From: Armatimonadota bacterium
Lineage (GTDB): Bacteria > Armatimonadota > Zipacnadia > Zipacnadales > JABUFB01
Assembly: GCA_013314775.1 (NCBI GenBank)
Contig: JABUFB010000008.1
Span: forward strand, 1,037,036-1,101,035
DNA: 64,000 nt
Direction: 5' to 3'
A program made the position numbers and the translations under genes. The notes below the pieces were generated by a model. That model was not told where the DNA came from. It worked only from the letters and a program-made list of their open reading frames with translations, and made no database searches. Below are positions 20,369 through 40,500 of the stretch, in pieces (the stretch's first letter is position 1; every line of letters starts with the position of its first letter).

Positions 20369-23300
20369 TCAGTTCACGGGGAAGAACTCCACCTTGTCGA
20401 TACGAAGGTTCCGGTCCTCCGGCGGCGCCCATTCGTCATTAGTGAAAACCAGTCGCAGCTCGAAAACCCCCTCTGGCAGCTCGACGGGCAGTGAGTAGCT
20501 CCGCCAGCTTTCGCTTTTCAACTCAAACTCGCCGGCCGCTTCCCCGCCGATCTCCACGCGAATGATTGGGTAGATACCCTTGACCGGAGTTCCACTTGCC
20601 GTCAACCGCAACTGGTACCGTCCTGCTTGCGCGCAACGGACCGTCTTGGCGATCCAGCCCGATGAGCCCATGTACGCGGCCCCGGCCTCGCGTCGGAACC
20701 AGGATATTCCCGGCTGAGGCTCGAAAGTCTCCGCTTCGAACACTGTGGCGCCGGCCTGCTCGAACCGCGCGCCCAGTCCCGTCAACAGGCCCGAGATGTA
20801 GCGCGAGGCCTTGCGGCTCTCACGCTCAGTCTTCGCCCAGTTGATGTTATCCACGACCACTCTCCCGCCACCGCGCTCAATCACGGCCAGTGCACCCGGA
20901 TTGGTGAGGATCGAGACGCCTTCGGACCCGTCATCAGCCGCAACCTTGAGGGCTTCCACAATCAGGTTGCGGTCCTCCGTGGCACTGTTGTAGTCATTCG
21001 TGAAACGGATCACTGCCCGATGTGTGCCGGCGGCCAGCTCGCCCGACACGGTATATGTGCGCATCCCACTGTCCTGGCAGGAGAATGCGCCCAGCACGCG
21101 CCCGTCAACACTCACGGTCCCTGTAGGATACACGCCCAGGGCCGGCGATCCACCGGCCACGACCCCGAGTATGTAGGCGCCGTCCGCAGGGATCTGGATG
21201 TCGACGGACGCTGTGCTCGACCCACTCGGGATGATCGCCTGACCATTGCGGATCGCGGTGTACGGTCCCTCCACCGTCATGGTCTCCGCCGGGTACTCGG
21301 TGGCCTGCTTGCCCTCCAGGGTCTTCGCAAACACGAAATCGGCCATGTCATCGGCCAGCGGCCGCGTCGCCCACGAGTGCGCGGCCCGGGATTCCCCAAG
21401 CCAGTAAAGGTCCTCGTTGGCGAGGAAGCTGGAAAGCGCATGGGCTCCCGGCTGCCTGACGACCCCGCCGCGATGGGGTACCAGCGCCAGGTCAGGGCTC
21501 CCCAGAAGTTCCGGGAGCAGCGCATCATCCGGCGCGACACCGTGAAGCAGTACGGTCCCGCCTCTCGCCAGCAATTCCCCGATCTTTTCCCGGCATGCTT
21601 CGAGCGCCTCCAGCGGCGGGCAGGCCACTAGCAGGTCCACGGCCGCCCAGTCAGCTTCTCCGGGTGCCTGAGTGATGTCTGCGTACTGCAGTCCGAGGCC
21701 ATCGAGGTACTCGCGCATTTCCGCATCCGGCGCGAACAGGGCCGTGCGGCTCGCGGGTGCGGGCTTCACGGCGAGGTAGTCGAGGGCGTTCTGGAGAATC
21801 AGCCCGGCCGCGGGTTCCACGTCCAGACGCTCTACGAGCCGAAGCTGGCTCAGCACCAGTGCGCCGTCACCCAAGAAATACTCGCACAAGGGCGCATACG
21901 CAATGCCCTGCCGGCTGCCGGACACCACGACCGCCCGGGCCGCGCCGCCCTCCGGACGGGCAGGCTCAGCGAGACTCACATAGTTGTCTGGACGCCACCA
22001 TTTCAGGTCATTGGGTTTCACGCCCCTAAGCAGGGGGTGTTCAGGCACCTGTGGGAAGGTCATGGTCGAGACCCTTTCCGTGGTTAGCGCGGGAAGGACC
22101 CCTTGCGTGTAGCCGGGCTGTTCGAGCACCAGCGCTTTGCCGCCGGCGCGCACGAAGTCGGTCAGCCCCCTTGCCCCGGTCTCCAGGCCGATAACCGGCT
22201 CCTGCTCAGTCATGCCACTGAGCGCCCCGGCTCCCACGACCACCGCCTGCAGACCGTCCGGGATCGCGTCCAGGTCGGCCACCGGGGGAAGGTTCACCCC
22301 ATATTTCTCCAAAGCCGCAGCCGTCTTGCCGCCGGGGTCAAACAACCCGGCGCGCGTTCCCTCCGGCGCCGTAAGCCTGAGCGGCGGGAATACCGACACC
22401 GGGTGGCTATCCTCGAAGACCGTCTCTCCTCCCCGCGATATGCGCACTCGCAGGGTCATCTCTGTGCGCGTGTCCACAGTGGGCAGATTCACTGAAAGCC
22501 GGACCTCGCGCCGCTCGCCCGGCTTCATCTGCAGCGTCATCTCGCCACACACTGTCTCCTGCTCACCGTCCACCAACGCCCAGTTCAGGGCAAGTTCTGA
22601 GTCGCTGAGCACGTCGTTGTATACGTCCGCAGTGCGGGTGATTTGCTCGCCGGAGTAGAAATTGTGGTCGTACTCGCGGATGTACGCCGCAATGTGCTGC
22701 ATGGCGTACTTCTGCGCCGCGTACATGGCATTGGTGTCTTCGTTGAGCGGACCACCTTCCACCATGGTCCACGGCGAGATCCCGCCCACTTCATAGTAGC
22801 GATACGCCTGGATCGCCATCCGCCATGAATCGCCCTTGGCCTTGACCCGGTAGCGGTCGTAGTCGAGATAGGCGTCATCTCCGTAGAAGACCGTGTGCCA
22901 GGATGGGTCGGAGGAGGGGACCCAGAGGAACTCACCCACATACACCGGCTTGCTCCGATCCCACAGCCAGGGATCCTCACCGTTGGTGAACATCCAGCTG
23001 ATACTCTTCGGGGTGTCCATCCAGTAGGCGGTGTTGGGCCAGTCGGTGTGCTCAGGATACTCATGCGGGTAGTGAATACCGATGACGTCCGCCACGCCGC
23101 CCGGATCGCCGTCGGATTCGTAGAAGATGGGCCGCGTCGGATCCCACTGCTTCATGAGCTCACCCAGCCGCACAAGCTGCGCTTTGGCCGGCGACTTGTC
23201 GTTGATCCGGGAGCCATAGAACTCATTCTCCAGGCTGTACATGACCACTGAGGGCTTGTTCTTGTCCCGATCCACCATGGCCTTGAGATGCGTGGCGTAG

Positions 23301-24466
23301 TTGTCCCAGAACCGCTGGTCATCCAGGCGGTAGACCTCGTCGTCGTTCCATACAGCGCCTTCCGGTATCATCATCAGGCCCATTTCATCCGCAGTCTCAT
23401 ACCAGATCTCGGACCAAGGCTGTGTGTGAGTGCGGAAGATCACGCAGTTGGCATTCTTGATCTGTCGGATGCGCTCCTGGATGTACTCCTTCGGCCTCGA
23501 CAACTCCGGCCACCACGAAGTCGCCAGCAGGTTCACACGCTTGCCGTTGAGGATGAAGTGGCTGCCTTCCACCCAGAACTCCCGGAAGCCGAAGCGGGTG
23601 CGCAGGTCATCCACCACCGCGTCGTCCTGAGTCATCACCGTCCGCAGGAAGTACAGATAGGGGTCCTCATGCGACCAGAACCGGGGTTCGGGCCAGGGCG
23701 CTTCGAGAACGGCCGTCGCTTCGCCCTGAGCGGGTACAGTAACAGCCTGAGCGGGCAACTCCAGCGCCTGTTGCCCAGCGTCCTCCACACTCGCCCCCAG
23801 CTGCAGGTTGGCCTCGCGATCAGTGAGATTTGCCAGCGTATACTCGACCCGCAGCCGCATGTTCCGCACCGAAGGCTTGATGAAGAGGTCCTTCACATAC
23901 ACCGCCGGGTGCGCGCGAAGCTCCACGTCATCCCATGGGCCGAAGTTGCTCACCAGGCCCCCGATGGGTGCGAGCACCCGGTCGCGGGGCAGATCACGCG
24001 GGTCTGTCGGGCGCGTCTGCATCACAGAGAAATCGACATCATTGGCGCTGAACACTCCAGTCCAATCGTGGCAGGCAAGGTCCAGGCGGTTGGTCTCCCC
24101 CACTCTCGCAGCGGCAGTGATATCCACGTCGAAGGGGTCGTACCCTCCGAAATGCCCGCCGACTTCCTGCCCGTTGATGTACACAGTGCTGTTGAACTTC
24201 ACGCCCCCGAAGTGAACCGTGAGGCGCCGCCCGGTCATGGACTGCGGGACCGTGAACTCACGGCGGAACCATGCCCGCTGGTAGTCCACCCCACTGATGG
24301 TTCCCGGGACCTCGATCGGCAACCAACCCTCCTCCGGCGGGGTGGTGAGTTCCGCAACCCGCACATACTGCCAAGCGCCGTTCAGGCTTATCTCCTGCCG
24401 GGGCTGACACCAGGCTATGCCGGACGCGATGATCATCATAAGGAACAGACAGTTGCGAAGCGCCAT
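20369..24466 (-). CDS. Large secreted GH2-family glycosidase with two CBM60-like domains
   Basis: A 1365-residue protein with signal peptide MALRNCLFLMMIIASGIAWC and a GGAG site 9 bases before the start. Domain order: GH2 sugar-binding jelly-roll (residues ~25-190; LNGAWQYVRV, RAWFRREF, VYINGQEVGGHFGGYDPF), immunoglobulin-like domain (~190-300), and TIM barrel (~300-600) with candidate acid/base E415 in SLENEFYG and nucleophile E512 in VYVGEFLWV. Then come ~450 residues including a GATase-like glutamine amidotransferase fold (GGKALVLEQPGYTQGVLP). Two tail domains each end with FTNDY/W...EDRNL, the Ca2+-binding signature of CBM36/CBM60 xylan-binding modules. Substrate could be a galactoside, mannoside or glucuronide. 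It is convergent with the kinase gene. Confidence 0.88.
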   Translation of the reverse strand: MALRNCLFLMMIIASGIAWCQPRQEISLNGAWQYVRVAELTTPPEEGWLPIEVPGTISGVDYQRAWFRREFTVPQSMTGRRLTVHFGGVKFNSTVYINGQEVGGHFGGYDPFDVDITAAARVGETNRLDLACHDWTGVFSANDVDFSVMQTRPTDPRDLPRDRVLAPIGGLVSNFGPWDDVELRAHPAVYVKDLFIKPSVRNMRLRVEYTLANLTDREANLQLGASVEDAGQQALELPAQAVTVPAQGEATAVLEAPWPEPRFWSHEDPYLYFLRTVMTQDDAVVDDLRTRFGFREFWVEGSHFILNGKRVNLLATSWWPELSRPKEYIQERIRQIKNANCVIFRTHTQPWSEIWYETADEMGLMMIPEGAVWNDDEVYRLDDQRFWDNYATHLKAMVDRDKNKPSVVMYSLENEFYGSRINDKSPAKAQLVRLGELMKQWDPTRPIFYESDGDPGGVADVIGIHYPHEYPEHTDWPNTAYWMDTPKSISWMFTNGEDPWLWDRSKPVYVGEFLWVPSSDPSWHTVFYGDDAYLDYDRYRVKAKGDSWRMAIQAYRYYEVGGISPWTMVEGGPLNEDTNAMYAAQKYAMQHIAAYIREYDHNFYSGEQITRTADVYNDVLSDSELALNWALVDGEQETVCGEMTLQMKPGERREVRLSVNLPTVDTRTEMTLRVRISRGGETVFEDSHPVSVFPPLRLTAPEGTRAGLFDPGGKTAAALEKYGVNLPPVADLDAIPDGLQAVVVGAGALSGMTEQEPVIGLETGARGLTDFVRAGGKALVLEQPGYTQGVLPALTTERVSTMTFPQVPEHPLLRGVKPNDLKWWRPDNYVSLAEPARPEGGAARAVVVSGSRQGIAYAPLCEYFLGDGALVLSQLRLVERLDVEPAAGLILQNALDYLAVKPAPASRTALFAPDAEMREYLDGLGLQYADITQAPGEADWAAVDLLVACPPLEALEACREKIGELLARGGTVLLHGVAPDDALLPELLGSPDLALVPHRGGVVRQPGAHALSSFLANEDLYWLGESRAAHSWATRPLADDMADFVFAKTLEGKQATEYPAETMTVEGPYTAIRNGQAIIPSGSSTASVDIQIPADGAYILGVVAGGSPALGVYPTGTVSVDGRVLGAFSCQDSGMRTYTVSGELAAGTHRAVIRFTNDYNSATEDRNLIVEALKVAADDGSEGVSILTNPGALAVIERGGGRVVVDNINWAKTERESRKASRYISGLLTGLGARFEQAGATVFEAETFEPQPGISWFRREAGAAYMGSSGWIAKTVRCAQAGRYQLRLTASGTPVKGIYPIIRVEIGGEAAGEFELKSESWRSYSLPVELPEGVFELRLVFTNDEWAPPEDRNLRIDKVEFFPVN

Positions 24467-25329: not shown

Positions 25330-27123
25330 TCACCTGCTGCCCGGCGCAAGCCGGTACACGCGGATGGTCGGCCCGATTCTTTGCCCGCCTCGCGGCTCAA
25401 AGGAGTTGAGCAGCCGTATTCCGCGCTCTGTTTCGCCTCGCGCGACGCGCTCCAGAATGATGTAGAAGCGGCGGAACTCGGGGAACGCCGCGGTGCGTGG
25501 GTCGTACCGAGGGAGTTCGTCAGCGCTCTGGTGCTCCAGGTACATATCGTAGACCGTGGACGAAGTCACGATGTACTGCGCGCCCTGCTCGCGAACATGA
25601 TCCAGAGAAAGCGTCCGGCTGGCCTCGCGACGGGCATACTCGCTGCGTTTGAGCCGGGCGATCGCCGGCCCGGGCCAGCTCTCCGGGAAAACGGGTTCGG
25701 GAAGTGTCTGTCTCAAGGGCAAGAGCCTGTAGACCGGCTTGCCCTTCAAGATACGGCTGACGGTTTCCCTGTGTTGCGTCGGTATCTCCCCGCGGGACAG
25801 ATAATCCTCCACACGCTCCATTGGAAGCAGCGCCGGGTAGCCCTCGGGCGAAGTCGGACCGGCGATGACTGCACCCGGGGGGATATTCGCCTCGATCCAC
25901 GCCCGAGAGAGTTCGCGCGTGTCGGGCAGGAGGAGAGAAAGGGAGTCGCGACCGTACACCACAACAGTCCACAGGACCAGGCCCGCGACTGCAACCGCCG
26001 CTGCGCGAGCAAAGATGGGCCTGTGAGTTCGCAGATGTCGGAGGCCGACCACGACGGCGTCGGCGGCCATTACCGCCAGAGCCGGGTACAAGAACAGGTA
26101 AAAGCGCATGTGGACCATGCGCCAGCGACCGATGTAGGCCAGCGCGAGGAGCACTCCGACGACCATGAGCAGTCGGGCCGGTGTGCGGCGAAAGATGCAC
26201 CCGATGAGACCCACCCCGAACAGGAGGGCAATGCCGTGCTCCGAGCGCAGGCACACGCCCAGATGCGACAGCCAGGGGATGAAGCTGGCCGGATCCACCG
26301 CACCCGAATAGGCCAGCAGCTTGTAGTCGCGCTCGTATACCAGCACGGAATGCAAGAACTTGTGGGGTTCCAGCAGCACCTGGAATGAGGTGACACTGAA
26401 GGCGGCGACGCCAAGCAAGAGCGCCTGGAGCAGATAGGACCACCGGGCTTGCGGGCTACGCTCGCCAGGACGGAGGCGATGCCACAGGTGTACCCCGACT
26501 CCCAGCACCCCCAGCATTCCCGCATTGTACTTCGCGGCCGTGGCAAGGCCGGTGAACAACCCCGCCAGCAGGTAGTTCCGCCGCGAGGGGTTGTCTGCCG
26601 CGTTTGCCAGAAACACCCACGCCAGAGCCGCCAGCGTCGTCATCGTGGCGTCCGGCACCGCTTCGTGACAGTAGTCATTGAACGTCGGGGTCAGGGCCAG
26701 CAGAGTCGCCGCAAGCAGCCCCACGGTGCGGTCGGCCACACTTCGCCCAAGCCAGTATGTGGCCACGATAGCCGCCAATCCCACCACCAGGCTGAGACCG
26801 TTGGCAACCGGCATGAATACGCGCCAGTCGATGAGGTTCGCGTACAACTCAGGCCACGTCCAGGCGCCCGAAGCCACCTGCAACGCGCAAAAGGCCACGA
26901 CGGTCGCCGCCAGGAGGTTCGCCTGCAGCATTGGGTAGGCGACGAACTTTGAGTTTAGAGCCGTGTCGCGCAAGTAGTGCAGGACATTGTCAACGACCCA
27001 TGGCCCTGCGTGCCACGTGGGGTTCGCAAAACCCGGCAGCGTCAGGGCCGTCGCGATGAACATGACAGCCCCGAGCACCCAGACATCACGGTTACGGGCA
27101 ATGGCCGCGCGGCTGGCGCTCAT
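25330..27123 (-). CDS. GT-C-type membrane protein, glycosyltransferase 39-like
   Basis: A 597-residue polytopic membrane protein with roughly 10-12 hydrophobic segments in the first ~400 residues and a soluble C-terminal ~190-residue domain. The first periplasmic loop, WHAGPWVVDNVLHYLRD, and the later FNDYCHEAVPDATMTTLAAL and GLATAAKYNAG follow the pattern of PMT/ArnT-like GT-C glycosyltransferases (PF13231), which use polyprenyl-phosphate sugars. Its ATG overlaps the stop codon of the upstream gene (ATGA), so it is translationally coupled to 27120-28163. It is the last gene of the candidate RiPP operon. It could add a sugar to a product or to a cell-surface glycan, or be an unrelated rider. 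Confidence 0.75.
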   Translation of the reverse strand: MSASRAAIARNRDVWVLGAVMFIATALTLPGFANPTWHAGPWVVDNVLHYLRDTALNSKFVAYPMLQANLLAATVVAFCALQVASGAWTWPELYANLIDWRVFMPVANGLSLVVGLAAIVATYWLGRSVADRTVGLLAATLLALTPTFNDYCHEAVPDATMTTLAALAWVFLANAADNPSRRNYLLAGLFTGLATAAKYNAGMLGVLGVGVHLWHRLRPGERSPQARWSYLLQALLLGVAAFSVTSFQVLLEPHKFLHSVLVYERDYKLLAYSGAVDPASFIPWLSHLGVCLRSEHGIALLFGVGLIGCIFRRTPARLLMVVGVLLALAYIGRWRMVHMRFYLFLYPALAVMAADAVVVGLRHLRTHRPIFARAAAVAVAGLVLWTVVVYGRDSLSLLLPDTRELSRAWIEANIPPGAVIAGPTSPEGYPALLPMERVEDYLSRGEIPTQHRETVSRILKGKPVYRLLPLRQTLPEPVFPESWPGPAIARLKRSEYARREASRTLSLDHVREQGAQYIVTSSTVYDMYLEHQSADELPRYDPRTAAFPEFRRFYIILERVARGETERGIRLLNSFEPRGGQRIGPTIRVYRLAPGSR

Positions 27124-28163
27124 GGGTGCATCTCATCCCCTCCGATGCGCGGGAAGTCCGCACGCCTCAGCGAAGGTGCAAGTTGCCACACGATGAGCGC
27201 CAAGACAGGCGCCAGTACGGGGTGATATATGCGGGTCTCTGCGATGTATGCGAAGGGGACCGCCAGTACGAGCAGAGGCAGGACGGTGCTGGCGCATAAC
27301 CTCAGCAATCGCGGGGCCGAGTTCAGGCGCCACAGTGCAATGGGCCACAGGCCCCCGGCAACCAGCAGCAGATTCCTGCGATACCCCGGGGTGCGGATGA
27401 GGGCCCAGGGATGACGGAACAGGGAATGGAGATTGAGGGCCAGCTGATTCGGATGGCCCCAGGACTTCCCGTAGTATTGCCCCAGTGCCGCGAGAATGCC
27501 CAGTGCCAGGGCGGCCCCCGCGACTGCGGTGACCACGGCCACCCGCCTGTCTCCCCGGGCCCACTGCACCAGAACCCAGGGCCACAGCAGGAGCGCGCCA
27601 GTCTCCTTATTGAGCACCGCTAGAGCAAGCAGGGCAAGCATCGCTGTCAGATCCCCAGGCCGCCGCAACAGCAGGACGTATCCCCCGGTGCACAGCGCCA
27701 GTTCCGCGAATTCGCTGCAGTACCAGTAATGGAAGGTCGAGGGCAGCACCGCGGCGGCCGCGAACAGCCCCAGAAATGCCCCGTCCCGGATGAACCAGAC
27801 ACCAAACCACAGCCACAGGACCCACAGCGCGGCGACAAGCGAAACGAATTGCATGATGTGGGCGCAAGTGGAGATGGAGATACCAGTGGCGATGCTGAGG
27901 GCCAGCGCCAGCAGGGGAACAAGCAGGCGGAACTGGAAGGTGGAGGACAGGTTCCCCTGGAGAATCCGCTCCACCTCGCCGCCCGGATTGGGTTCGACGA
28001 GATGGATGTAGGAACCGTAGAGGACCACGGACAGAGCAAATATGGTGACGCCGGTGACCAGCGCCTCGACCCTGAAGACCCGACGGAGGGCGAACCAAAC
28101 CACACCAACCAGGGCCGCCGCCGCCAGCGATCGCGCAAGGTTGAGCACGTCCTGATAGTCCAT
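27120..28163 (-). CDS. Polytopic membrane protein of unknown function, GT-C-like
   Basis: A 347-residue membrane protein with about 9-10 hydrophobic segments, starting MDYQDVLNLARSL 22 bases after the PqqD-like stop. VLNKETGALLLWPWVLV and FHYWYCSEFAEL resemble the periplasmic/transmembrane layout of EpsG- or GT-C-type polymerising glycosyltransferases, but I cannot place it in a family. It overlaps the next gene by four bases, so the two membrane proteins are probably made together and may form a pair. Its place in the operon after the peptide-modifying genes suggests a late step such as glycosylation or membrane handling, which is inference. Confidence 0.65.
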   Translation of the reverse strand: MDYQDVLNLARSLAAAALVGVVWFALRRVFRVEALVTGVTIFALSVVLYGSYIHLVEPNPGGEVERILQGNLSSTFQFRLLVPLLALALSIATGISISTCAHIMQFVSLVAALWVLWLWFGVWFIRDGAFLGLFAAAAVLPSTFHYWYCSEFAELALCTGGYVLLLRRPGDLTAMLALLALAVLNKETGALLLWPWVLVQWARGDRRVAVVTAVAGAALALGILAALGQYYGKSWGHPNQLALNLHSLFRHPWALIRTPGYRRNLLLVAGGLWPIALWRLNSAPRLLRLCASTVLPLLVLAVPFAYIAETRIYHPVLAPVLALIVWQLAPSLRRADFPRIGGDEMHP

Positions 28164-28185
28164 GCTCGTCCGTCCGCTCTCGGCG

Positions 28186-28446
28186 CTATTGCTCCAGAAT
28201 CGACAGCTCAGCGAAACTGGCCAGGCACGCCAGGATGTCTTCGCGCGCTTCGGCCTCGGAGACCTCATAGAGGGCGACGGCTTCGGCGACGATGTCCTCC
28301 ACGTCGTGCTCACCGTCGCAGCGGTCCCACACGAAGCGCGCTGTCTCGTTGAGCACATGGACGGCCTTGCCACTCGCGTCGTAGATCATCCACTCATCGG
28401 CTACCTGGCGTCCCAGCAGGTCCTTGCGACGAACTGGCTTGTCCAT
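28186..28446 (-). CDS. PqqD-like peptide chaperone (RiPP recognition element)
   Basis: An 86-residue protein starting MDKPVRRKDLLGRQVADEWM. It has the PqqD pattern: a two- or three-strand N-terminal part with IYDASGKAVHVLNETARFVWDRCDG, then helices DVEDIVAEAVALYEVSEAEAR and a final DILACLASFAELSILEQ. PqqD-like domains bind leader peptides and hand them to a radical SAM enzyme (established). The start codon overlaps the stop of the S24/S26 gene (TAATG), so the two are coupled. Its presence beside a SPASM radical SAM enzyme and a short peptide gene is the strongest single sign that this locus makes a RiPP. Confidence 0.88.
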   Translation of the reverse strand: MDKPVRRKDLLGRQVADEWMIYDASGKAVHVLNETARFVWDRCDGEHDVEDIVAEAVALYEVSEAEAREDILACLASFAELSILEQ

Positions 28447-28973
28447 TATGGCCTCCGATCTTCGTCGGTCGCGGGACGCGCCGATGGCAGTATCCCCAGT
28501 CGCCACGCCCTGTGTACTACACGCAACGGGTAGCCGAAGCGCGGCCAGAGCGCCGCCTCCACGCGCGAGAGCAGGGCCACGAGACGCGAGATGGGCGGGC
28601 GCCAGTGGATGGGTGTGGTCAGGCGCCCCTCGCGCACGATTCCTGTGACGCGGCCGACAATGCTCTCCGGTGGCGAAGTCTCGTCCGAGTGGAAGCAGCG
28701 GTCACCTTTGGTGACGACAGACCCGTCCTCCATCCGGGCGACGACCCGGTGGGCGACGAACTCACCTTTCAGCCGCACCAGGGCTACGTCGCCGATCCGC
28801 AATGCACCTGGGGAAGGGTCCACCAAGCACTCACAGCTTCCAGCGAGACAGCCTCCCATGCTTGCGCCCTCCACCCGCAACAGGAAGGGTTCGCCACTCC
28901 GGGCATGGATGGCGACCAATGCGGAGGCATACTCACTACGCGGGTCCGAACTGTCAACGTCGTCTTGAGCCAT
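28446..28973 (-). CDS. S24/S26-family signal-peptidase-like serine protease
   Basis: A 175-residue protein starting MAQDDVDSSD, whose start lies 20 bases inside the end of the kinase-like gene. It carries the Ser/Lys dyad of the S24/S26 fold: S38 in VEGASMGG and K89 in VVTKGD, with GDVALVRLKGEFVAHRVV between them as in type I signal peptidases and LexA-like proteases. It has no N-terminal membrane anchor; a weakly hydrophobic stretch is near residue 130. Proteins of this type recur in RiPP clusters beside PqqD and HPr-kinase-like genes (from memory). It could remove the leader from the peptide, which has not been shown. Confidence 0.85.
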   Translation of the reverse strand: MAQDDVDSSDPRSEYASALVAIHARSGEPFLLRVEGASMGGCLAGSCECLVDPSPGALRIGDVALVRLKGEFVAHRVVARMEDGSVVTKGDRCFHSDETSPPESIVGRVTGIVREGRLTTPIHWRPPISRLVALLSRVEAALWPRFGYPLRVVHRAWRLGILPSARPATDEDRRP

Positions 28974-29958
28974 GTGACGCACACCCGGTGTATTCCAGCA
29001 GTAAGCGCGCGGTCTCCATGGGCGGTCCGGCCACCAGATTGGCGCATTCGATGCCGTCCAGGATCGCACCCCACCGCCATATGAGCGCCAGGGCGTCGCG
29101 CCCGGTGGCGAAGCAGTCTGCTTCGACCAGGTGTCCCGCCATCATCCCCGCTTTGGCGGGAGAGAAAGACGGCATGGGCCCGAAATCCACGATACGCACG
29201 ACGTGCGTGAGCCGGGTCTCGCTCCCCAGGGCGTCCCCGCGAACGTCCTCGGGATGAACATAGTAGCGCGTCTCCCCGCGCAGATCAACGATTGTGGACC
29301 TGGGCAGCGATGCAAATTCCGGCTCGGCTTCCAGGGTGCCCTTCCGCAGGCGAGTCGCCCTGGCGAAGGGCAGTATAATGCCGAGGTCGAGATCAACCGC
29401 GCTCAGGTCGTCAGACATGAACTGCATGCCCGCGATGGTCGCGGCAACGCTCAGCGTGGTCTTCCCACCCTTCGTCGGGGCCAGGATGAGCACGCCGACT
29501 GCATCGCGAACCACGGCGCCGGCATGCACCAGTCGGACAGAAGGCTGCTCGCGAAGCAGGTGGTCCAGTACACGCCTCTGGAAATGGATTGCGAGCAGTT
29601 CCAGGGCCGTCTCATCGTTCAGGTCAGCCCCCGGGTCTTCGGCTCCGAAGGTGCCCGCGTCCACAACCGTCTCGGCATCGACCCGGGTGAGATGGAACAG
29701 GGAACCGTTGTCGGGTGAACGGCTGGCCAGATACCCGGCGCGCGGCGTCCAGAACGCCGCCTCGATCCCCTCGGCGGGGCGGTAATGGCACAGAAACTGG
29801 ATTCGCTGCCCGGTCTGGTCTGGCGCGAAAATGCGACTTGCGTAGGTGTCTCTGAGTATTTGATGGATGCGAGGGGAATTTGTGGCAAGGATGATTTGCC
29901 GCCCAAGAAGCGTCAAAGCGAGCTGATGCGGGCAGTCTTCCAGCGGAGGGCGTTCCAT
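28954..29958 (-). CDS. HPr kinase/phosphorylase-like protein
   Basis: A 334-residue protein. The start is set at the ATG of MERPPLEDC because the frame further upstream passes through a GC hairpin; no strong ribosome site is visible. The C-terminal half has the HprK-type fold: HAGAVV (H145), Walker A APTKGGKTT with K166, and MSDDLSAVD with D183/D184. In HprK the P-loop kinase phosphorylates Ser of HPr. Homologues in lasso peptide clusters phosphorylate a serine of the precursor peptide (established for ThcoK-type enzymes). Here the precursor candidate has S4, S10 and T26, so it is a possible substrate. No HPr gene is nearby, arguing against carbon-control function. Confidence 0.85.
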   Translation of the reverse strand: MERPPLEDCPHQLALTLLGRQIILATNSPRIHQILRDTYASRIFAPDQTGQRIQFLCHYRPAEGIEAAFWTPRAGYLASRSPDNGSLFHLTRVDAETVVDAGTFGAEDPGADLNDETALELLAIHFQRRVLDHLLREQPSVRLVHAGAVVRDAVGVLILAPTKGGKTTLSVAATIAGMQFMSDDLSAVDLDLGIILPFARATRLRKGTLEAEPEFASLPRSTIVDLRGETRYYVHPEDVRGDALGSETRLTHVVRIVDFGPMPSFSPAKAGMMAGHLVEADCFATGRDALALIWRWGAILDGIECANLVAGPPMETARLLLEYTGCASHGSRRR

Positions 29959-30065
29959 GGTTAAAGGGACAGATCGGGTTGGGGTGGGCGCAATCACGAT
30001 ACCACGAAACCGCGCGCAGCGGACAAGCGGCATTCGCGGCCGGTCAGGAATCAGGAAGAATGGGC

Positions 30066-30095
30066 GCGGCCCGCGCATTTGCCTGCACGGGCCGC
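30066..30095 (-). terminator. GC-rich hairpin after the peptide gene (attenuator-like)
   Basis: GCGGCCCG at 30066-30073 and CGGGCCGC at 30088-30095 form an 8-bp perfect stem with a 14-base loop, 44 bases beyond the peptide stop codon. Only scattered T residues follow on the minus strand, so termination would be partial. Such a structure between precursor and enzyme genes would let much more peptide than enzyme message be made. Confidence 0.45.
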
Positions 30096-30138
30096 ACACG
30101 TTACCCCAGCAACGACACTGGGAAACACGAACTGCTTA

Positions 30139-30243
30139 CTATTGGTCGAGGTGGCCGTCTTCGTGGGTCTGTGCCTTGGCCGCGAGCTTAGCGAGAAGCT
30201 CCTTCTCTTTGTAGGACTTTACCACCGGCTTGCTCCACTTCAT
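30139..30243 (-). CDS. Candidate RiPP precursor peptide, 34 residues
   Basis: A small gene encoding 34 residues. The peptide begins MKWSKPVV, continues with a lysine- and leucine-rich middle (KEKELLAKLAAK), and ends HEDGHLDQ. It has W3, P6 and Y11 but no cysteine. The start is supported by GGGAG 9 bases upstream and by a good promoter at 30301-30329. W-x-K-P at the N-terminus is also the opening of PqqA peptides, which PqqD binds, though the PqqA Glu-x3-Tyr pair is not visible. It lies between the DUF483-like and HPr-kinase-like genes of a radical SAM/PqqD cluster. The leader is probably the N-terminal ~22 residues and the core near the C-terminus, which is inference. It has no recognised family. 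Confidence 0.75.
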   Translation of the reverse strand: MKWSKPVVKSYKEKELLAKLAAKAQTHEDGHLDQ

Positions 30244-30300
30244 CACGGTTTCTCCCTTTTTCCCAAGGTACTGGCCCAACCGCGCAAACTACATACTACC

Positions 30301-30329
30301 ATTGTAGCCATTGGACGACGCCGGGTCAA
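30301..30329 (-). promoter_or_regulatory. Sigma-70-type promoter of the peptide gene
   Basis: On the minus strand TTGACC (30329-30324) is followed after exactly 17 bases by TACAAT (30306-30301); both hexamers match the consensus at five of six positions. Transcription would begin about 50 bases before the peptide ATG. The -35 box overlaps the stop codon of the DUF483-like gene, so the peptide can be transcribed independently of the upstream genes. Confidence 0.7.
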
Positions 30330-31201
30330 GCTGAATCTGCCTGTTTCTCGGGCACAGGCGACTGACTCCGGAAGGGAAGCCAGACCGCACCCCCTGCCTG
30401 CGCAACCATGGCGCCGTCTCGGAAGACCTCCAGGCGCCCGTCGCGCAGACGCAAGAGGTCCGAAACCATTAGCTCTCCGGTGTGATAGGCCGCTTCGGAG
30501 ACACGCAGACAGTCTCCTGTCCGCCTTTCTCGCCAGGCGACCACGTATGGAAGGGCATGCGCAACATCCGTCTCGAGACATGTCAGGGTCTCCCGAGCAA
30601 GTTCGGGCGCATGCTTCTCAAGAGCTGAAAGCGTGCCGGTCGCGACGGCAAGGGATCCCTCGCAGTCCCAGCGACATGGGAAGTGGCTGATCAGTGCGTA
30701 GCCGAAATGCCGGCAAGCATAGTTGATCAAAGGATCATAACGTCCCGACGGGGGCCAGCCAACGGCAGCCACAAGGTCCGCCCCATCGGGCAGGTGCCGT
30801 CGCTCAGTGCAGTCGAGGAAAAAGCTTACGCAGCAGTCGGGATACCCTAGAAGGCGCCCAAATCGCACGGGATCTGCGCCGTCAAACAAGCGAGCCAGGT
30901 GCACAGCCACCGGTTCAGCGCCGATGTACGCATGCACCGAGGACGCGGCAGTCGTCTCGTCATCGCGGGCCAGACGGTGCCCGTGTACTGTCCCAGCCAC
31001 AGGCGCCTGGGGTATTACACGGTACTCCGAGACCCCGCCGGTCAGCCCCAGCGCCTGCACGAGGTCCATGAGATCCGCCACACACCCTTGGTGCAGGAGA
31101 ACGCGCATGACTGGTTTGGCGCCCTCCAGGACGGCGAGGAGTTCGGTCAGACCTCGCCGGCCCAGCAAGGCCCGCGCTACCCCCAGTTGCTCCTCGGTCA
31201 T
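30326..31201 (-). CDS. DUF483-like protein in the RiPP locus
   Basis: A 291-residue soluble protein starting MTEEQLGVAR; its ATG overlaps the stop of the radical SAM gene (ATGA), so it is translationally coupled to it. The stretch RFGRLLGYPDCCVSFFLDC with C123/C124 resembles the GYPxCCV signature of DUF483, a family of unknown function (from memory). H35/R33, H90 and C131 could also be functional. The C-terminal part (GELMVSDLLRLRDGRLEVFR) looks beta-rich. Tight coupling to the SPASM enzyme implies a shared role in modifying or sensing the peptide, but I cannot name a reaction. Confidence 0.6.
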   Translation of the reverse strand: MTEEQLGVARALLGRRGLTELLAVLEGAKPVMRVLLHQGCVADLMDLVQALGLTGGVSEYRVIPQAPVAGTVHGHRLARDDETTAASSVHAYIGAEPVAVHLARLFDGADPVRFGRLLGYPDCCVSFFLDCTERRHLPDGADLVAAVGWPPSGRYDPLINYACRHFGYALISHFPCRWDCEGSLAVATGTLSALEKHAPELARETLTCLETDVAHALPYVVAWRERRTGDCLRVSEAAYHTGELMVSDLLRLRDGRLEVFRDGAMVAQAGGAVWLPFRSQSPVPEKQADSA

Positions 31202-32472
31202 TTCCTGTCACCCTCACGGCCGGGACGCTGCGCAGCTGCTGCAAGGGCCGCGTCAACCTTGCGAGCGAGCCGAGTGAACACGTCCTTGTAGGCCTCGCAA
31301 AGGTAGTCCACACCACCTGGGCAACCGCTGGCCTGAATGCGGTGGTAGGTGCAACCGCCGTGGCAGTAGTCCCACCAATCACACTCGCCGCAGGCCGCAT
31401 CGCCGTCGGCCCGAGCCCGCCAGAAGGCCTCGGCAACCGGCGAATTCAGGATGTCCACGAGATCGTCGCTGAGAATATTCCCAAAATGAAACCGAGGCTC
31501 CAGACTCATCTCGCAGCATGGCGATACGGTCCCGTCGGGCTCGAAGCCGGGAAAGTTGGCGCACGACCCACCCAGGGCACAAGTCTGGGGTGAGTACCCC
31601 AACAGGGCTCGCATGACGTCATCGATGATGCCGATTTGCGCGCCACCGCCGTCGCATGCCCACGCGTCGAAGAGGTCTTCGATGTACTGGCCGAAGCACG
31701 AAACGGTCTCGGGCGCGCGGCACGGGTTCGCGCGCCACTTTCGGATTCCGAGCCGGGTCATCAGCCTGAAGAGATCACCGGGAGCCGCAGCCGGCGGGCA
31801 TGTGACCACGGCAATCGCTGACACCTGGACGCCTTCCTCCTGCACTGCGGCGATGCCCTCCAGCAATCGCGCTATCGAGCCGCGTCCAGCGGAGTCCACG
31901 CGATTGGCATCATGCACTTCCGGCGGGCCATCGATGCTGACTCCCACCCGGAACCCATTCTCCGCGAAGAACCGGCCCCACTCGCGGTTCAGCAGCGTCC
32001 CGTTGCTTTGTACGGAATTGCTGATCTGCTGCCCGGGCCTGCGGTACTTCGTTTGCAGCGCCACCGCGAGACGGAAGAAATCGATACCCGCCAGAAGGGG
32101 TTCGCCGCCATGAAAGGAGAAGCTGGCCTTGCCGGGGGAAAGAGCCATGACCTGGGAGATGATGCGTTCGAGCAACTCCTCGCTCATACGTTGCACAGGC
32201 TGTTCGGGCCTGTTGAAGCAGTACTTGCAACGCAGGTTGCAGCTGTCGCCCACAGGCTTGATCAGCGCGCTCAGGCAACGCTGGTCAGGCGAATCCAGCA
32301 GGCCGGCGGTGAAGACACGGGCCAGCCGGTCAGACTGTTCCTGGATGATGCGCAGTGCAGCGCTGGCCACCGCCCGGTCAGAGGGGGAAGTCGTCTCATC
32401 CCGGGGTGCAGTGAGGGCAAACGTCCGTCTCTCGCTGGCTGTAAGCATGGCGAAGGGAACTCTGGCCGGCAT
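31198..32472 (-). CDS. Radical SAM/SPASM peptide-modifying enzyme
   Basis: A 424-residue protein. The start MPARVPFAML is chosen because an AGGA site precedes it; the frame is open upstream without a site, and a later ATG (MLTASERR) is possible. The radical SAM motif is C78-x3-C82-x2-C85 in SCNLRCKYCF, followed by FSFHGGEPLL. The C-terminal SPASM region has CALGGSCANF, SPCC and CGECDWWDYCHGGC, giving enough cysteines for two auxiliary iron-sulfur clusters. This architecture is shared by anaerobic sulfatase-maturating enzymes and RiPP maturases such as PqqE and MftC. No sulfatase is in the window and PqqD-like and peptide genes follow, so peptide modification is favoured. Confidence 0.88.
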   Translation of the reverse strand: MPARVPFAMLTASERRTFALTAPRDETTSPSDRAVASAALRIIQEQSDRLARVFTAGLLDSPDQRCLSALIKPVGDSCNLRCKYCFNRPEQPVQRMSEELLERIISQVMALSPGKASFSFHGGEPLLAGIDFFRLAVALQTKYRRPGQQISNSVQSNGTLLNREWGRFFAENGFRVGVSIDGPPEVHDANRVDSAGRGSIARLLEGIAAVQEEGVQVSAIAVVTCPPAAAPGDLFRLMTRLGIRKWRANPCRAPETVSCFGQYIEDLFDAWACDGGGAQIGIIDDVMRALLGYSPQTCALGGSCANFPGFEPDGTVSPCCEMSLEPRFHFGNILSDDLVDILNSPVAEAFWRARADGDAACGECDWWDYCHGGCTYHRIQASGCPGGVDYLCEAYKDVFTRLARKVDAALAAAAQRPGREGDRK

Positions 32473-32478
32473 TTGTGT

Positions 32479-32529
32479 TTTTCCTGATGCGGCACAGGCA
32501 GTATAATCGACCCTCGTTGGCCGCCGCAA
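32479..32529. promoter_or_regulatory. Divergent promoters between radical SAM and nucleotidyltransferase genes
   Basis: On the plus strand TATAAT (32502-32507) is preceded after 17 bases by TTTTCC (32479-32484), a weak -35. On the minus strand TATACT (32505-32500) is preceded after 18 bases by TTGCGG (32529-32524). The -10 boxes overlap in AGTATAAT, so the two operons probably share one control point. Confidence 0.5.
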
Positions 32530-32556
32530 CGTCGCGTGGGTGGGATGTAATGGTTG

Positions 32557-33750
32557 ATGAGGGTACTGCGCCCCCTCGAAGATCTGGTCCCTTTGGCCGA
32601 GGAGCGCCTGCTGGTCGAGGCCGTCGGGGTGGTTGCGGGCGGCCTGAGCGACCTCCCGGCCGCGAGCAGCGCGTCTGATTGGGAGAGGGTTGCCGAACTG
32701 GCGCGCGCACATCGCGTGGGCGCAGTAGTCGCGCATGCGCTGGCCCGGACAGACTGTCGCGTGCCATCCTCGGCCTCGGAGCTCCTGGGCGGTGTCGCGA
32801 GGGAGGAGTTCGCAGCGACGCTGATCTCCCGTGGCCAGCTCGGGGCCATCACGGCGGCACTCTCGGATGCCAGTGTGCCGGCCATGCTTCTCAAGGGCGC
32901 GGCGCTGGATCAGGTCGCATACCCGGCTGACCTGCCCCGCACCATGTCTGACCTCGACCTTTTGGTACCCGAAGATAGGCTGCCGGAAGCGGTCACGGTG
33001 GCTCGAAGTCTGGGCTATCGGGACCTTGAGGAGTCCGCCGATCCCCGCGATGCGTACCACGTCACGCTCGCGTGCGAGGGCCGGATCGTGGAGCTTCACT
33101 GGCGCATCACCGCGCGCGGCCCGTTCCGTTTCCCCCCCGAACGAATCTGGATGCGGAGACTGGATGCGCCTGCCGTAAGCCCGGGCGTCGTGACCCCATG
33201 CCTGGTGGACCTCTTCGTTCTCGGGGCTTTCCACTACGTGTTCCAGAACAGGTTCTATAACGGCCTGCAGTCTCTGCTGGACCTCGCGCTGCTCGCGGGA
33301 CGAGCTGCAGAGCAGGAGACCGGCGAGGAACTGGTCGCCACTGCTCGTGAGACGAACTCGTCCGGAGCGGTGTACTGGGCAATGTGCATGCTGCACGACT
33401 GGTTGGGGATGGATGTGGGCGATGGCACCCGCAAGCTTCGCCCGGCCGGTTTCGTGCATAACCGGGCGGCCCAACTGCTTGAGGAGACCTTCGCGGATGC
33501 GCTGTCGCATATGGGCGGGCGCCCCGGATCGGCGACGGGGCTGGACCGGGTGCTGTGGCGCCTGGCATGCACCAGTTCGGAGAGCCCGGTTACCGCGCTA
33601 TCGGCGGTTGCTACCGAAGTTTTCCGAGCACCAAGGGGCGGCGAGGGAGGTCAGCGGCTGACAACCCCGCTGAGCCGAGCTCTATTTCTGTTGCGCCCGA
33701 GTCGCTGGTGGAAGGCCTGGCGCGCCCTGCGCGGCGACAGGAGGGTTTGA
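32557..33750 (+). CDS. Uncharacterised nucleotidyltransferase family protein (NTP_transf_5-like)
   Basis: A 397-residue soluble protein divergent from the radical SAM gene. The ATG of MRVLRPLEDL follows a G-rich region; a TTG one codon earlier is also possible. The segment VPAMLLKGAALDQVAY followed by RTMSDLDLLVP (metal-binding D132 and D134, counting from this ATG) matches PF14907, the uncharacterised nucleotidyltransferase family, with VELHWRI beyond it. These genes commonly accompany lasso-peptide and other RiPP clusters (from memory) but the reaction is unproven; AMP or NMP transfer to the peptide is possible. The C-terminal half (~200 residues) is helical and shows no further motif. No gene follows closely. 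Confidence 0.75.
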   Translation: MRVLRPLEDLVPLAEERLLVEAVGVVAGGLSDLPAASSASDWERVAELARAHRVGAVVAHALARTDCRVPSSASELLGGVAREEFAATLISRGQLGAITAALSDASVPAMLLKGAALDQVAYPADLPRTMSDLDLLVPEDRLPEAVTVARSLGYRDLEESADPRDAYHVTLACEGRIVELHWRITARGPFRFPPERIWMRRLDAPAVSPGVVTPCLVDLFVLGAFHYVFQNRFYNGLQSLLDLALLAGRAAEQETGEELVATARETNSSGAVYWAMCMLHDWLGMDVGDGTRKLRPAGFVHNRAAQLLEETFADALSHMGGRPGSATGLDRVLWRLACTSSESPVTALSAVATEVFRAPRGGEGGQRLTTPLSRALFLLRPSRWWKAWRALRGDRRV

Positions 33751-36772: not shown

Positions 36773-37423
36773 TTACAACGGTTCCCTGCGTTTCCTCCGA
36801 ATGGCGATCCCGATCCCCGCAAGCCCGAAGAGCACCAGCGACAGCGTGCCCGGTTCCGGGATGTCATTACGGACAGTCACCTGGAAGGGGCTGCCGGCCT
36901 GACCGGCGAGCTCGTCGAAGTCGTCCTCAGTGATCAGGATATTGCTCAGGGTCAGGGAGTACGTGTCCGGGGCTGTGCCGAGAGGCACGCCCAGCACCCA
37001 CTTTTCGATGGTGTACGTACCCGGAACAAGAGCGTTGCTGTCCGCCCGACCCGTGGCCTGGTGGAAGTCGGCTGCTCCTGGATCGCCGTCGGGATAGAGA
37101 GCAGCATCCACCGTGAACGGGTAACCGACTGCGGTCTGGCGCGGCGTTGCCTGGTCAAAGAACGACGCGTCCGCGGTCCAGCCGTAACTGCCGTAGTCGC
37201 GGCTGACCAGCAACCAGTCGGTGGTCGGAAGGACAACATCGTACTGTACCGCCAGCACGTCCGTGTCACTGATCATCCGCACCAGTATCTCCAGGGTGTC
37301 CCCGTCGAACATGGTCGCGGAACCGTGACCAGCCAGGGTCTCCATCTGGAAGACCGTTGCGGCATGGACGCCTGCGGCCGTCGAAAGCGATAGAGCTAAC
37401 ACCAACGGCACGAACCACTTCAT
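36773..37423 (-). CDS. PEP-CTERM sorted secreted protein
   Basis: A 216-residue protein. The start MKWFVPLVL follows GGAGGAGGGAG; a signal peptide runs to about ATVFQ. The C-terminus is a textbook PEP-CTERM tail: IPEPGTLSLVLFGLAGIGIAI then RRKRREPL, that is a PEP motif, a membrane helix and a basic end. Such tails are processed by an exosortase and mark surface or exopolysaccharide-associated proteins (established). The mature part is a beta-sandwich-like domain with no catalytic motif. No exosortase gene is in the window. A hairpin lies just before the ribosome site. Confidence 0.9.
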   Translation of the reverse strand: MKWFVPLVLALSLSTAAGVHAATVFQMETLAGHGSATMFDGDTLEILVRMISDTDVLAVQYDVVLPTTDWLLVSRDYGSYGWTADASFFDQATPRQTAVGYPFTVDAALYPDGDPGAADFHQATGRADSNALVPGTYTIEKWVLGVPLGTAPDTYSLTLSNILITEDDFDELAGQAGSPFQVTVRNDIPEPGTLSLVLFGLAGIGIAIRRKRREPL

Positions 37424-37438
37424 GCTCAGACTCCCTCC

Positions 37439-37463
37439 TCCAGTTCGCAATGCGTGAACTGGG
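37439..37463 (-). promoter_or_regulatory. Hairpin before the PEP-CTERM ribosome site
   Basis: The 5' leader on the minus strand contains CCAGTTC paired with GAACTGG (7-bp arms, extended by GC with one bulged base), ending ~16 bases before the ATG and directly abutting the GGAGG. It could tune translation or stabilise the message. No riboswitch class is recognised. Confidence 0.35.
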
Positions 37464-37532
37464 GACGCTCGCCCACTGTATGGTCGGCCGGACACCACCT
37501 CCCACTCGCAGGTCGGGGCGCTGCCGCGTCGC

Positions 37533-40500
37533 CTACCTGTGCACGGACAGGGCGCAGGTCCTCGACGCCTGCCGGCCATCCTCCGAGCGCACCGTGAGCT
37601 TCACGAAATAGGTGCCCGAAGGGACCCGCGTGCCTGCAGTGCTCACCCCGTCCCAGACCACGCGATTGACGCCGGCAGGAAGCACCGCATCGCTGCTCAA
37701 GCGCCGAATCACCCGACCCGCGATGTTCAGAATGTCCACGTCCACCGCTGCCTGCTCGCCGAGAGTGAAGGCAATCTCGGCGCCTCCCGCGCCCCGGGGC
37801 ACCGCGGACAGACTCGTAACCTGCCCGCCGCCGACGATCCGCGGGACGAACTCAAGGCCGAGTTCCCGCACGCCGGCTGTTGATGGCGTGTACGTGTACC
37901 CGGTCCGGGTGCGCATGTAGACCCGCTTCCCGGTTACCGTGTCCACCAGGTACGGTGTCAGGGTGACCGGAACTTGGGTGAGATCAGGCCAGGAGACGGT
38001 GACAGGCAGTCCGGCGGAGCCGCTGTGTACGGCGATCCGCCATTTGTAGCCGCTCGCACCTGACGCCTGCAGGGAAAGTGCCTCCCCGGGCGTGCCCGGA
38101 TCGCTCAACGATTGCGACTTCACGACGAGATCCACGCCAGGGCCGAAGGGCGGGTGCGGCTCCGACGCGCCCAGTCCCCGGGCAGCGGCGCCGATGACCG
38201 TGCAGCGGTCCGCGTAGTCCCCCGCCGAAGCAACCAGTCGCACTTGCCAGTCCGCGGCTTCCTGTTCGACGCTTCCCGCGCCCGCGACCCCGGACTCCAC
38301 ATGACTTGATTCCGCGGATATAAGGAGCTCGCACGGCACGCGAGCGCACACGAAGTAACCTTGCCAGGGCTCCAGCATTGCCCCTGAATTGGCCGCCAGC
38401 CGGGTGTTTCCGCCGTCCTCATACCCGTAGGCTACCGCGTAGATCCAGTTCCTTTCGACCCCACCCGATAGCGGCAGCCATTCGCCGGAATGCAGCACCT
38501 GGATGTTCCGGTCAGACCATTCCACTGCATGGGCGAAGGGGCACCCGATGATGTTCCAACCCTTTTCGAGATGGACGACCTCATCAGGCGGAGACGACGC
38601 GCTTCGCGGCGGACACTGGAGAGATCCACCCCGGCGGGAGTAGAGCCAGTAGCCGCGACCCGTCTCGGTCCCCGATGACGAGACTGCCAGCGCGCCGCCG
38701 GCATCGACCGTGAACAACTCCCAGTCAGCGCCACGCGTGCCCAGTCCGGAGGCGATGGTGTCGAGAGCCGCCGATCCTACGTCCCCTGGTATAGCGATGC
38801 GCGACCAGCCAGGCGAGACCACGAACGATGGCGGAGCGTTGCTGACCAAAGCCGAAGAGGCTGTGATATCCGGTGCGGAGTGGTTCATGTTCGCCTGGAC
38901 CAGGTACATCTCGGTGATAGTGATGAGCCCGTTCTGGTTCAGGTCGTAGTGGCAGTTGGCCGCTGTCACCGCCTTGTTCAGCATGCTCTGCATGAGGTAC
39001 ATGTCGGTTATGGTCACACGCGAACTGTGGTTGACATCGCCCACGCAGCATTTCAGGATGCGGTCGCGATCACCCGTGAGCGCAAGACCGTTGTCGCGGC
39101 CGGTAATCGTCTCCGAAAGAGTGATCTCGAAGGTGTCATCGTCGGGGAGTGCGGGGCTGAAGTCGATGAACAGCGTATGCGCGTCGGTGCTCAGGGTAGT
39201 CGCCGAAACTCTCGCGGAAATATCCCCAGCCTTGGAGGCGACAACCATAAGATCAGCAGGCGTCACGGGAGCCAGTGGGTCGGTGAATACCACGGCCAGC
39301 CTGGACACGCGCCCGGTGCGGGTCTCCACGTAGCCGTCGGTGCAGGTTGTGGCGATCTCCCCAACGCCGCCGCCGTGGGTGGCCACCACTGTCCATTCCA
39401 CGACTTCAGGTGGGGTGCTATCGTCGGACTCAACGGTGAAACCGTCTGTGAGGGTCCCCCACTGTCCGTCCGGGTTGGTGACCGTGATGTCCCAAGTGCC
39501 CGGCGTGACCCCGTTCAGGTCCAGGGTGCAGGTGATTTGCGTGAAGTTCACTACACTGACCCCGGTCGCGATGACGTCGGTCTCACCCGACTTCTCAAGC
39601 TTCACCGTCGCGCCACTCTGGAAGCCCATGCCTTCGAGGTCGGTAATTGCGACGGAACCAGAATTCGGGGCCGAACTGGGCGTACTGGATATCACCCGCG
39701 GATTGTCGATGTTCACGATGACCCGGGGTGTGTCGCAGCTTGTGAGAACCTCGACGTCCTCAATCGTCTTGGTCTGGCTGAAATACGTGGCGCTGATATC
39801 GTACAGACCGGGATCGATGTTGGCGATACGATACATGCCGTCGGAGCGGGTAGTTGCCCCCGGCGCATATCCTCCGGCGACCGGCGTTGCTTTGACCACC
39901 GCATTCTGCACCGCCGTCCCATAGTACGTGACCTGGCCGGTGATCGCCCCCACAGCGGACGCCCGGTTGTCATTCTCGAGAAGGGTCTGCGCCGCGTTGA
40001 TTCGCCCCCAACCCCAATAGGGATGCCAGCCCGGAACGAGCCCGACATCATCGCAGCCGCGCTGAATCGCTCGGAAGATCCGGATCAGACCACCTGGTGT
40101 TGACTGGGTGATGCCCTGTGAGGCCGCATATAGGCTGGCAAGACCGGAGACGAAGGGGCAGGCGAGAGAGGTGCCCGTCTGGTACTGGTACCGCGCGTTG
40201 CCCTCGGGCAATCCTGCGTAATGCATGGGCACGAGTTCGGTGGGCATCGTAGTCCAGGTAAGCCAGAAGGCGAGGGTGTCCATGTCCACGTCGCCGCCCG
40301 GGGCAGCAACATCCACATAGTCACCGTAATTCGAGTAGGAGGCCGGGGCGTCGTAAGGCCAACTGGTGGAAGCAACGCCCATCACCCCGGCACAGGCAGC
40401 TGGGTAAGTGGGCCTGTTCATGGAGTCGCCCTCGTTGCCTGCGGCGGCGACCACCAACGCCCCGTGTTCCCAGGCGTAGTTCACTGCGTCTTGCTCAAGC

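Follow-up and report, generated by a model that had tools for sequence, protein, structure and literature searches.

A locus in the 6.1 Mb genome of an Armatimonadota bacterium very probably directs the synthesis of a RiPP. In the window, i.e., the whole stretch of 64,000 nucleotides that was analysed, a conserved short precursor gene lies beside genes for peptide-modifying enzymes, and a PqqD-like protein (PF05402) provides a precursor recognition element. The best explanation of the whole is a RiPP on which a radical SAM (rSAM) enzyme would iteratively install aromatic-x-Asp cross-links, followed by tailoring with a kinase and a nucleotidyltransferase. As a complete account, in which each chemical step is predicted, it is considered somewhat probable. 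The features are as follows, in positions of the window.

32557..33750, plus strand: NTP_transf_5 nucleotidyltransferase-like protein, 397 aa, divergent from the rSAM gene (PF14907, 135 bits)
31198..32472, minus strand: radical SAM/SPASM peptide maturase, 424 aa (PF04055, 63.6 bits; PF13186, 38 bits)
30326..31201, minus strand: DUF483-like protein, 291 aa (PF04467, 22.4 bits, cut-off 25)
30139..30243, minus strand: precursor peptide MKWSKPVVKSYKEKELLAKLAAKAQTHEDGHLDQ, 34 residues (leader ~1-26, core HEDGHLDQ)
30064..30097, minus strand: hairpin with a 14-bp stem, 3' of the peptide gene, also in the congener
28954..29958, minus strand: HPrK-like kinase (P-loop APTKGGKT, SDD; TIGR04352, 2e-8, below cut-off)
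28446..28973, minus strand: S24/S26-like peptidase (PF00717, 19.4 bits, cut-off 23.3)
28186..28446, minus strand: PqqD-like RiPP recognition protein, 86 aa from the ATG at 28446 (PF05402, 58.1 bits, above cut-off)
27120..28163, minus strand: multi-pass membrane protein, ~7 hydrophobic segments; membership uncertain
25330..27123, minus strand: PMT_2 (GT-C type) glycosyltransferase-like membrane protein (PF13231, 56 bits, 5e-15); membership uncertain

All the genes that the preliminary description had placed here, i.e., a minus-strand set with a divergent NTP_transf_5-like gene, were found at these coordinates. Several names bear "like" because the DUF483, S24 and HprK matches fall below curated cut-offs, and one of the membrane proteins could not be placed in any family. 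The rSAM carries an N-terminal extension of ~60 aa. The kinase start was put at the ATG at 29958 because the sequence upstream is not conserved as protein in a congener (genome G001, locus L006). As for the tight or overlapping gene order described before, it stands in part. ATGA overlaps join the rSAM and DUF483-like genes as well as both membrane genes, the kinase and peptidase genes overlap by 20 bases, and the peptidase stop and the PqqD start share position 28446, but the order is broken on both sides of the peptide gene, by a gap of 82 bp in front and one of 180 bp behind. The latter gap holds the hairpin, a perfect 14-bp stem (-44 kcal/mol, z -4.3) that occurs in a single copy genome-wide and is conserved in the congener. 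This hairpin is a candidate leaky terminator or attenuator and may let the peptide exceed the downstream enzymes in amount. The locus is adjoined by a gene for a large GH2 glycosidase with CBM60 modules (20369-24466), and a PEP-CTERM-like protein is encoded on its opposite side (36773-37579).

Judged by its conservation, the 34-residue peptide is a real gene, because 27/34 residues (79%) are identical in the congener and the conserved bases around it start at the RBS. The preliminary description was right about the short peptide, and the HxD motif in it had gone unnoticed there. The leader is almost invariant between the two genomes (consensus MKWSKPxVKSYKExELLAKLAAKAQT), and the core reads HEDGHLDQ in the window and HGDTFGDR in the congener. 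His27, Asp29 and Asp33 are unchanged, position 31 goes from His to Phe with the aromatic character kept, and every one of the x positions 28, 30, 32 and 34 differs. Such a pattern of change would be expected of two [aromatic]-x-Asp units with one free residue between them. In a shuffling test of the HxD count, the two HxD of the window core gave p=0.002; the congener core, with one HxD and one FxD, was borderline (p 0.06-0.14). The very short core and the single HxD plus FxD of the congener count against the best explanation. The conserved Thr26 is the sole Ser/Thr adjoining the core.

The congener keeps the order NTP5/rSAM/DUF483-like/peptide with identities of 80, 82, 77 and 79%, respectively, and its contig ends soon after. 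Further away, DUF483-like proteins are rare in Armatimonadota. Matches were found in 6/291 genomes at E<=0.001, one of which (G187), overlapping a long opposite-strand gene, was dropped. Three distant Armatimonadota genomes (L012-L014) nevertheless carry the genes rSAM-DUF483-like-peptide-PqqD-HPrK-NTP5 contiguously on a single strand. Homologues of the HPrK-like and NTP_transf_5 proteins are present in these clusters, that of PqqD also in L012, and one genome has two copies of this type of cluster. In their peptide, a Tat-like leader, not related to that of the window, precedes a core of tandem HxDx (HSDHTDAHTDTHTDT...HVDSHTD). The gene set thus recurs with another precursor that shares the (HxDx)n core, as the neighbourhood comparison proposed in the preliminary description had anticipated, and its reading as a RiPP locus gains support. 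Scattering of the genes without the peptide and pairing of the rSAM with sulfatases, both named beforehand as evidence to the contrary, were not seen in the genomes compared. The two membrane genes fared less well. They had been counted as a pair within the set, but their membership is unproven because the distant clusters lack them and one has no family match, and their place in the system is not supported. The GT-C-like label holds for the protein at 25330-27123, with its PMT_2 match. It is unsupported for that at 27120-28163, because this protein has no Pfam or NCBIfam match, just its hydrophobic segments.

A scan of 85,000 genomes plus plasmids placed DUF483-like genes next to rSAM genes outside the phylum too, in Verrucomicrobiota, Planctomycetota, Acidobacteriota (Bryobacterales), Pseudomonadota and haloarchaea. 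Of 37 DUF483-like loci, 19 have an rSAM within 3 kb; the other 18 showed none nearby in this test, which counts against the best explanation. The precursors at the non-Armatimonadota DUF483/rSAM loci are usually rich in aromatic-x-Asp/Asn/Ser. For instance, a Verrucomicrobiales locus (L046) has a DUF483-like gene beside an rSAM and a precursor with HTD, HSD, HAN and HYD units; no second genome with this rSAM was found among 320 of the same order. On a Halomicrococcus plasmid (L105), a precursor with many H/Y/F-x-D/N units (HSDTHGDSYADE...) lies directly upstream of rSAM and DUF483-like genes. In Nitrosovibrio, Nitrosospira and Paracoccus yeei, a precursor with HVN/FVN/HAN repeats is accompanied by an rSAM, an HExxH enzyme and further genes, and a Planctomycetaceae locus (L031) combines a precursor with HSSHSSGHSS, an HExxH enzyme and an FxsB/YhhB-type rSAM close to FxsB (365 bits, cut-off 370). 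Exceptions occur. In Chromobacterium (L023, L029), the DUF483-like gene is found with an HxsB-like rSAM and a likely precursor without HxD enrichment (shuffling p 0.4-1.0), and at the Halorussus locus L106 a precursor was not found. Among small ORFs, the pattern H.[DN].H.[DN] occurred in 5/1826 at loci with both DUF483 and rSAM genes versus 0/2845 at loci without DUF483. Judged by these neighbourhoods, the DUF483-like and rSAM genes recur as a unit in bacteria and archaea and are not a local oddity. Since such gene sets extend across bacteria and salt-loving archaea, they seem to form an overlooked peptide-chemistry family. On the Paracoccus yeei plasmid pYEE1 (L104), the set of HxN-repeat precursor, DUF483-like, rSAM and HExxH genes is located near quinohemoprotein amine dehydrogenase genes. 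Quinohemoprotein amine dehydrogenase is itself matured by an rSAM.

In an alignment of 27 relatives of the DUF483-like protein, G115, LGYP (118-121), C123, C124, C176 and C180 are invariant, and N160 and P175 nearly so. The resulting signature, LGYPxCC ... N ... PCxxxC, contains four invariant Cys and suggests a metal or Fe-S site. The LGYPxCC stretch is common to Pfam DUF483 (PF04467) and the window protein, which misses the gathering score of 25, as do four relatives scanned against the same model (16-21 bits or unmatched). The AlphaFold model (pLDDT 86) yielded no clear match in a fold search. The standout was 2guk, a protein without assigned function, which aligned over 102 residues in the N-terminal half (Z 8.9, rmsd 2.5); NleE followed weakly (Z 5.3), and no functional inference was drawn from either. 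Nothing meaningful was retrieved by the DUF483 profile from PDB sequences, and no DUF483-like protein was found in viral contigs. Titles from a text search for DUF483 in the open literature point to other subjects, which is weak evidence of absence. DUF483-like stretches are also part of long proteins (L034 6656-9679, L038 27-2663, L047 1131-3938, L050 123-3380), at least one of which, L038, has an rSAM-like part; such natural fusions hint at a joint function.

Such a Cys-rich partner could also be read differently. The HxDxHxD peptide might simply bind a metal through His and Asp ligands, any modification being secondary. Indeed, His/Asp-rich repeats resemble metal-binding sequences. This explanation is improbable, as His is replaced in the same register by Phe in the congener and, many times, by Tyr in the haloarchaeal precursor, and HxN and HxS versions occur. 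That the rSAM and the DUF483-like protein act on the aromatic-x-Asp motif is likely.

The best NCBIfam model for the rSAM is TIGR03942, the anaerobic sulfatase maturase (anSME), at 253 bits, and this family, with which the enzyme has the full set of SPASM Cys in common (PF13186), is the nearest in sequence. The auxiliary-cluster Cys positions align with anSME, and the nearest solved structures include anSMEcpe and, as third best, the cyclophane synthase ChlB, the study of which is cited in PMC12636437. It could therefore be asked whether the rSAM is a diverged maturase, next to an unrelated peptide and a kinase half that forms a separate operon, the more so as the hairpin and the 180 bp gap split the halves and other Armatimonadota loci have HPrK/S24 pairs but lack this rSAM. 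This is very improbable, and the assignment as sulfatase maturase was rejected. The score lies below the cut-off of 349, while two true maturases are encoded elsewhere in the genome (438 and 410 bits). Furthermore, the window and congener enzymes have PCCE in place of the Cys276-Asp277 step of anSME, whereas anSMEcpe and 30/30 maturase-like relatives inspected keep Cys-Asp; Asp277 of anSMEcpe is presumably catalytic. No sulfatase was found in the locus, and rSAM, DUF483-like, peptide, PqqD, HPrK and NTP5 genes are contiguous in L012-L014. In a tree, the window and congener rSAMs form their own branch (support 100/99), and support is weak (81/82) for the branch that unites the maturases to their exclusion. 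Among the matches listed in the phylum search, none apart from the congener is >42% identical to the window rSAM. The window and L012 rSAMs are 22% identical and therefore possibly catalyze different reactions.

None of the NCBIfam cyclophane-family models attains its cut-off on the window rSAM (bits/cut-off: DynA 209/450, AmcB 134/425, GrrM 133/310, YhhB 117/445, FxsB 89/370). The closest analogy is nonetheless with triceptides (OscB/GrrM, XncB/XyeB, YxdB, HaaB/ScaB, YhhB, FxsB; ChlB with ChlH), which likewise combine a SPASM rSAM with a precursor of repeated aromatic-x-x motifs, as found in HEDGHLD, HGDTFGD and the (HxDx)n of the relatives. The bond made by their 3-CyFEs runs from W/F/Y/H to the C-beta of a residue at i+2, which may be Asn, Asp, Ser, Arg or Ala (PMC11002830). 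There are thus separate precedents for His, Phe or Tyr as the first residue and for Asp, Asn or Ser as the third. The His-Asp pair is absent from the pairs given, and a DUF483-like partner is not named, in the available text of that source. In contrast to triceptides, the rSAM of the locus reaches no equivalog or subfamily cut-off, and a kinase and a nucleotidyltransferase are added. A cyclophane as the product is reasonably probable on this analogy. Other chemistry on the HxD motif of a RiPP, i.e., epimerisation, hydroxylation or oxidation of His/Asp, or a cross-link that does not connect a ring carbon with C-beta, appears unlikely. In its favour, the rSAM is near the sulfatase maturases, which work by H-abstraction and oxidation, HExxH beta-hydroxylases stand at several DUF483 loci, and the DUF483-like protein, with its invariant Cys, might serve as another redox or metal enzyme. 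Beta-hydroxylation of Asp and His by an rSAM-fused HExxH enzyme, on a cyclophane already installed, has been described (PMC12636437). On the other hand, the exchange of H for F or Y with Asp/Asn kept suits an aromatic-to-C-beta link, and known cyclophane families lie close to some of the rSAMs found at DUF483 loci.

As for the tailoring genes, an HPrK-like gene followed by an S24/S26-like peptidase gene is found in other Armatimonadota without this rSAM (L066 7299-10183, L070 6974-8421), joined in L066 by NTP_transf_5; the pair is therefore a portable tailoring module. Three other Armatimonadota loci (L067, L068, L069) have an apparent PqqD-rSAM fusion, then an HPrK-like gene and a gene for a very large putative secreted protein, and look like a different, repeated system. 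Elsewhere in the same genome as the window, two more PqqD-like genes were observed (L015 7974-9507, L016 9082-9348), one adjoining another NTP_transf_5-like gene; further RiPP-like loci are therefore likely. The combination of genes had been described as new, which applies only in part, as kinase, NTP_transf_5 and PqqD have a counterpart in lasso peptide tailoring. In the available text on phosphorylated and phosphoglycosylated lasso peptides (paeninodin, pseudomycoidin), an HPrK homologue phosphorylates the peptide, a putative nucleotidyltransferase adds hexoses and a PqqD-like protein takes part, as proposed here (PMC8498205). The core enzyme here is an rSAM, however, and the lasso kinases described there act on a C-terminal Ser, which the locus peptides lack. 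Membership of the lasso peptides was rejected, with no B2 protease and no Asn-synthetase-like cyclase domain among the nine locus proteins.

The SynChlorMet cassette contains PqqD-like and HPrK-like proteins and rSAMs, and HPr-rel-A a PqqD-like and an HPrK-like protein; compared with both, the locus has the DUF483-like gene and the HxD peptide in addition. The earlier distinction from SynChlorMet was borne out, the locus not being an equivalog. Membership was rejected for this cassette (ScmD 30 bits, cut-off 100; ScmC unmatched), and the ScmE/ScmF models were not within the best 25 rSAM models for the window rSAM. It was also rejected for HPr-rel-A (HprK_rel_A, TIGR04352, on the kinase 33.7 bits, cut-off 200; TIGR04353 20.6 bits, cut-off 35). 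A text search for SynChlorMet in the open literature found nothing, again weak evidence of absence.

Taken as a pathway, the preferred RiPP reading would begin with the PqqD-like protein, possibly together with the N-terminal extension of the rSAM, presenting the leader. The core would be treated as two [His/Phe]-x-Asp-x tetrads, worked on iteratively by the SPASM rSAM with the DUF483-like protein. In each tetrad, the rSAM would bond the ring of the first, aromatic residue to C-beta of the Asp at position 3, so that two three-residue cyclophanes result. The HPrK-like kinase would then phosphorylate the peptide, for which Thr26 is the candidate site beside the core, and the NTP_transf_5 protein might put a sugar or nucleotide on the phosphate, as its lasso counterparts do. 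Phosphorylation with glycosylation is put forward tentatively, by analogy. The S24/S26-like protein, a candidate leader peptidase, would cut off the leader.

A broader view is equally tentative. It takes the DUF483-like/rSAM pair as one family across bacteria and haloarchaea acting on repeated His(aromatic)-x-Asp/Asn/Ser tetrads, with the DUF483-like protein as a hitherto unrecognised metal- or Fe-S-dependent partner that cross-linking requires and the Armatimonadota peptide stapled, phosphorylated and glycosylated. A His-Asp cyclophane and a combined pathway of stapling, phosphorylation and glycosylation are predicted, and neither is present in the available texts of PMC11002830, PMC8498205 and PMC12636437. 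The DUF483-like family of archaea and bacteria gains a testable context, namely that of an rSAM partner on His-x-Asp/Asn/Ser peptides, and haloarchaea are added as candidate RiPP makers.
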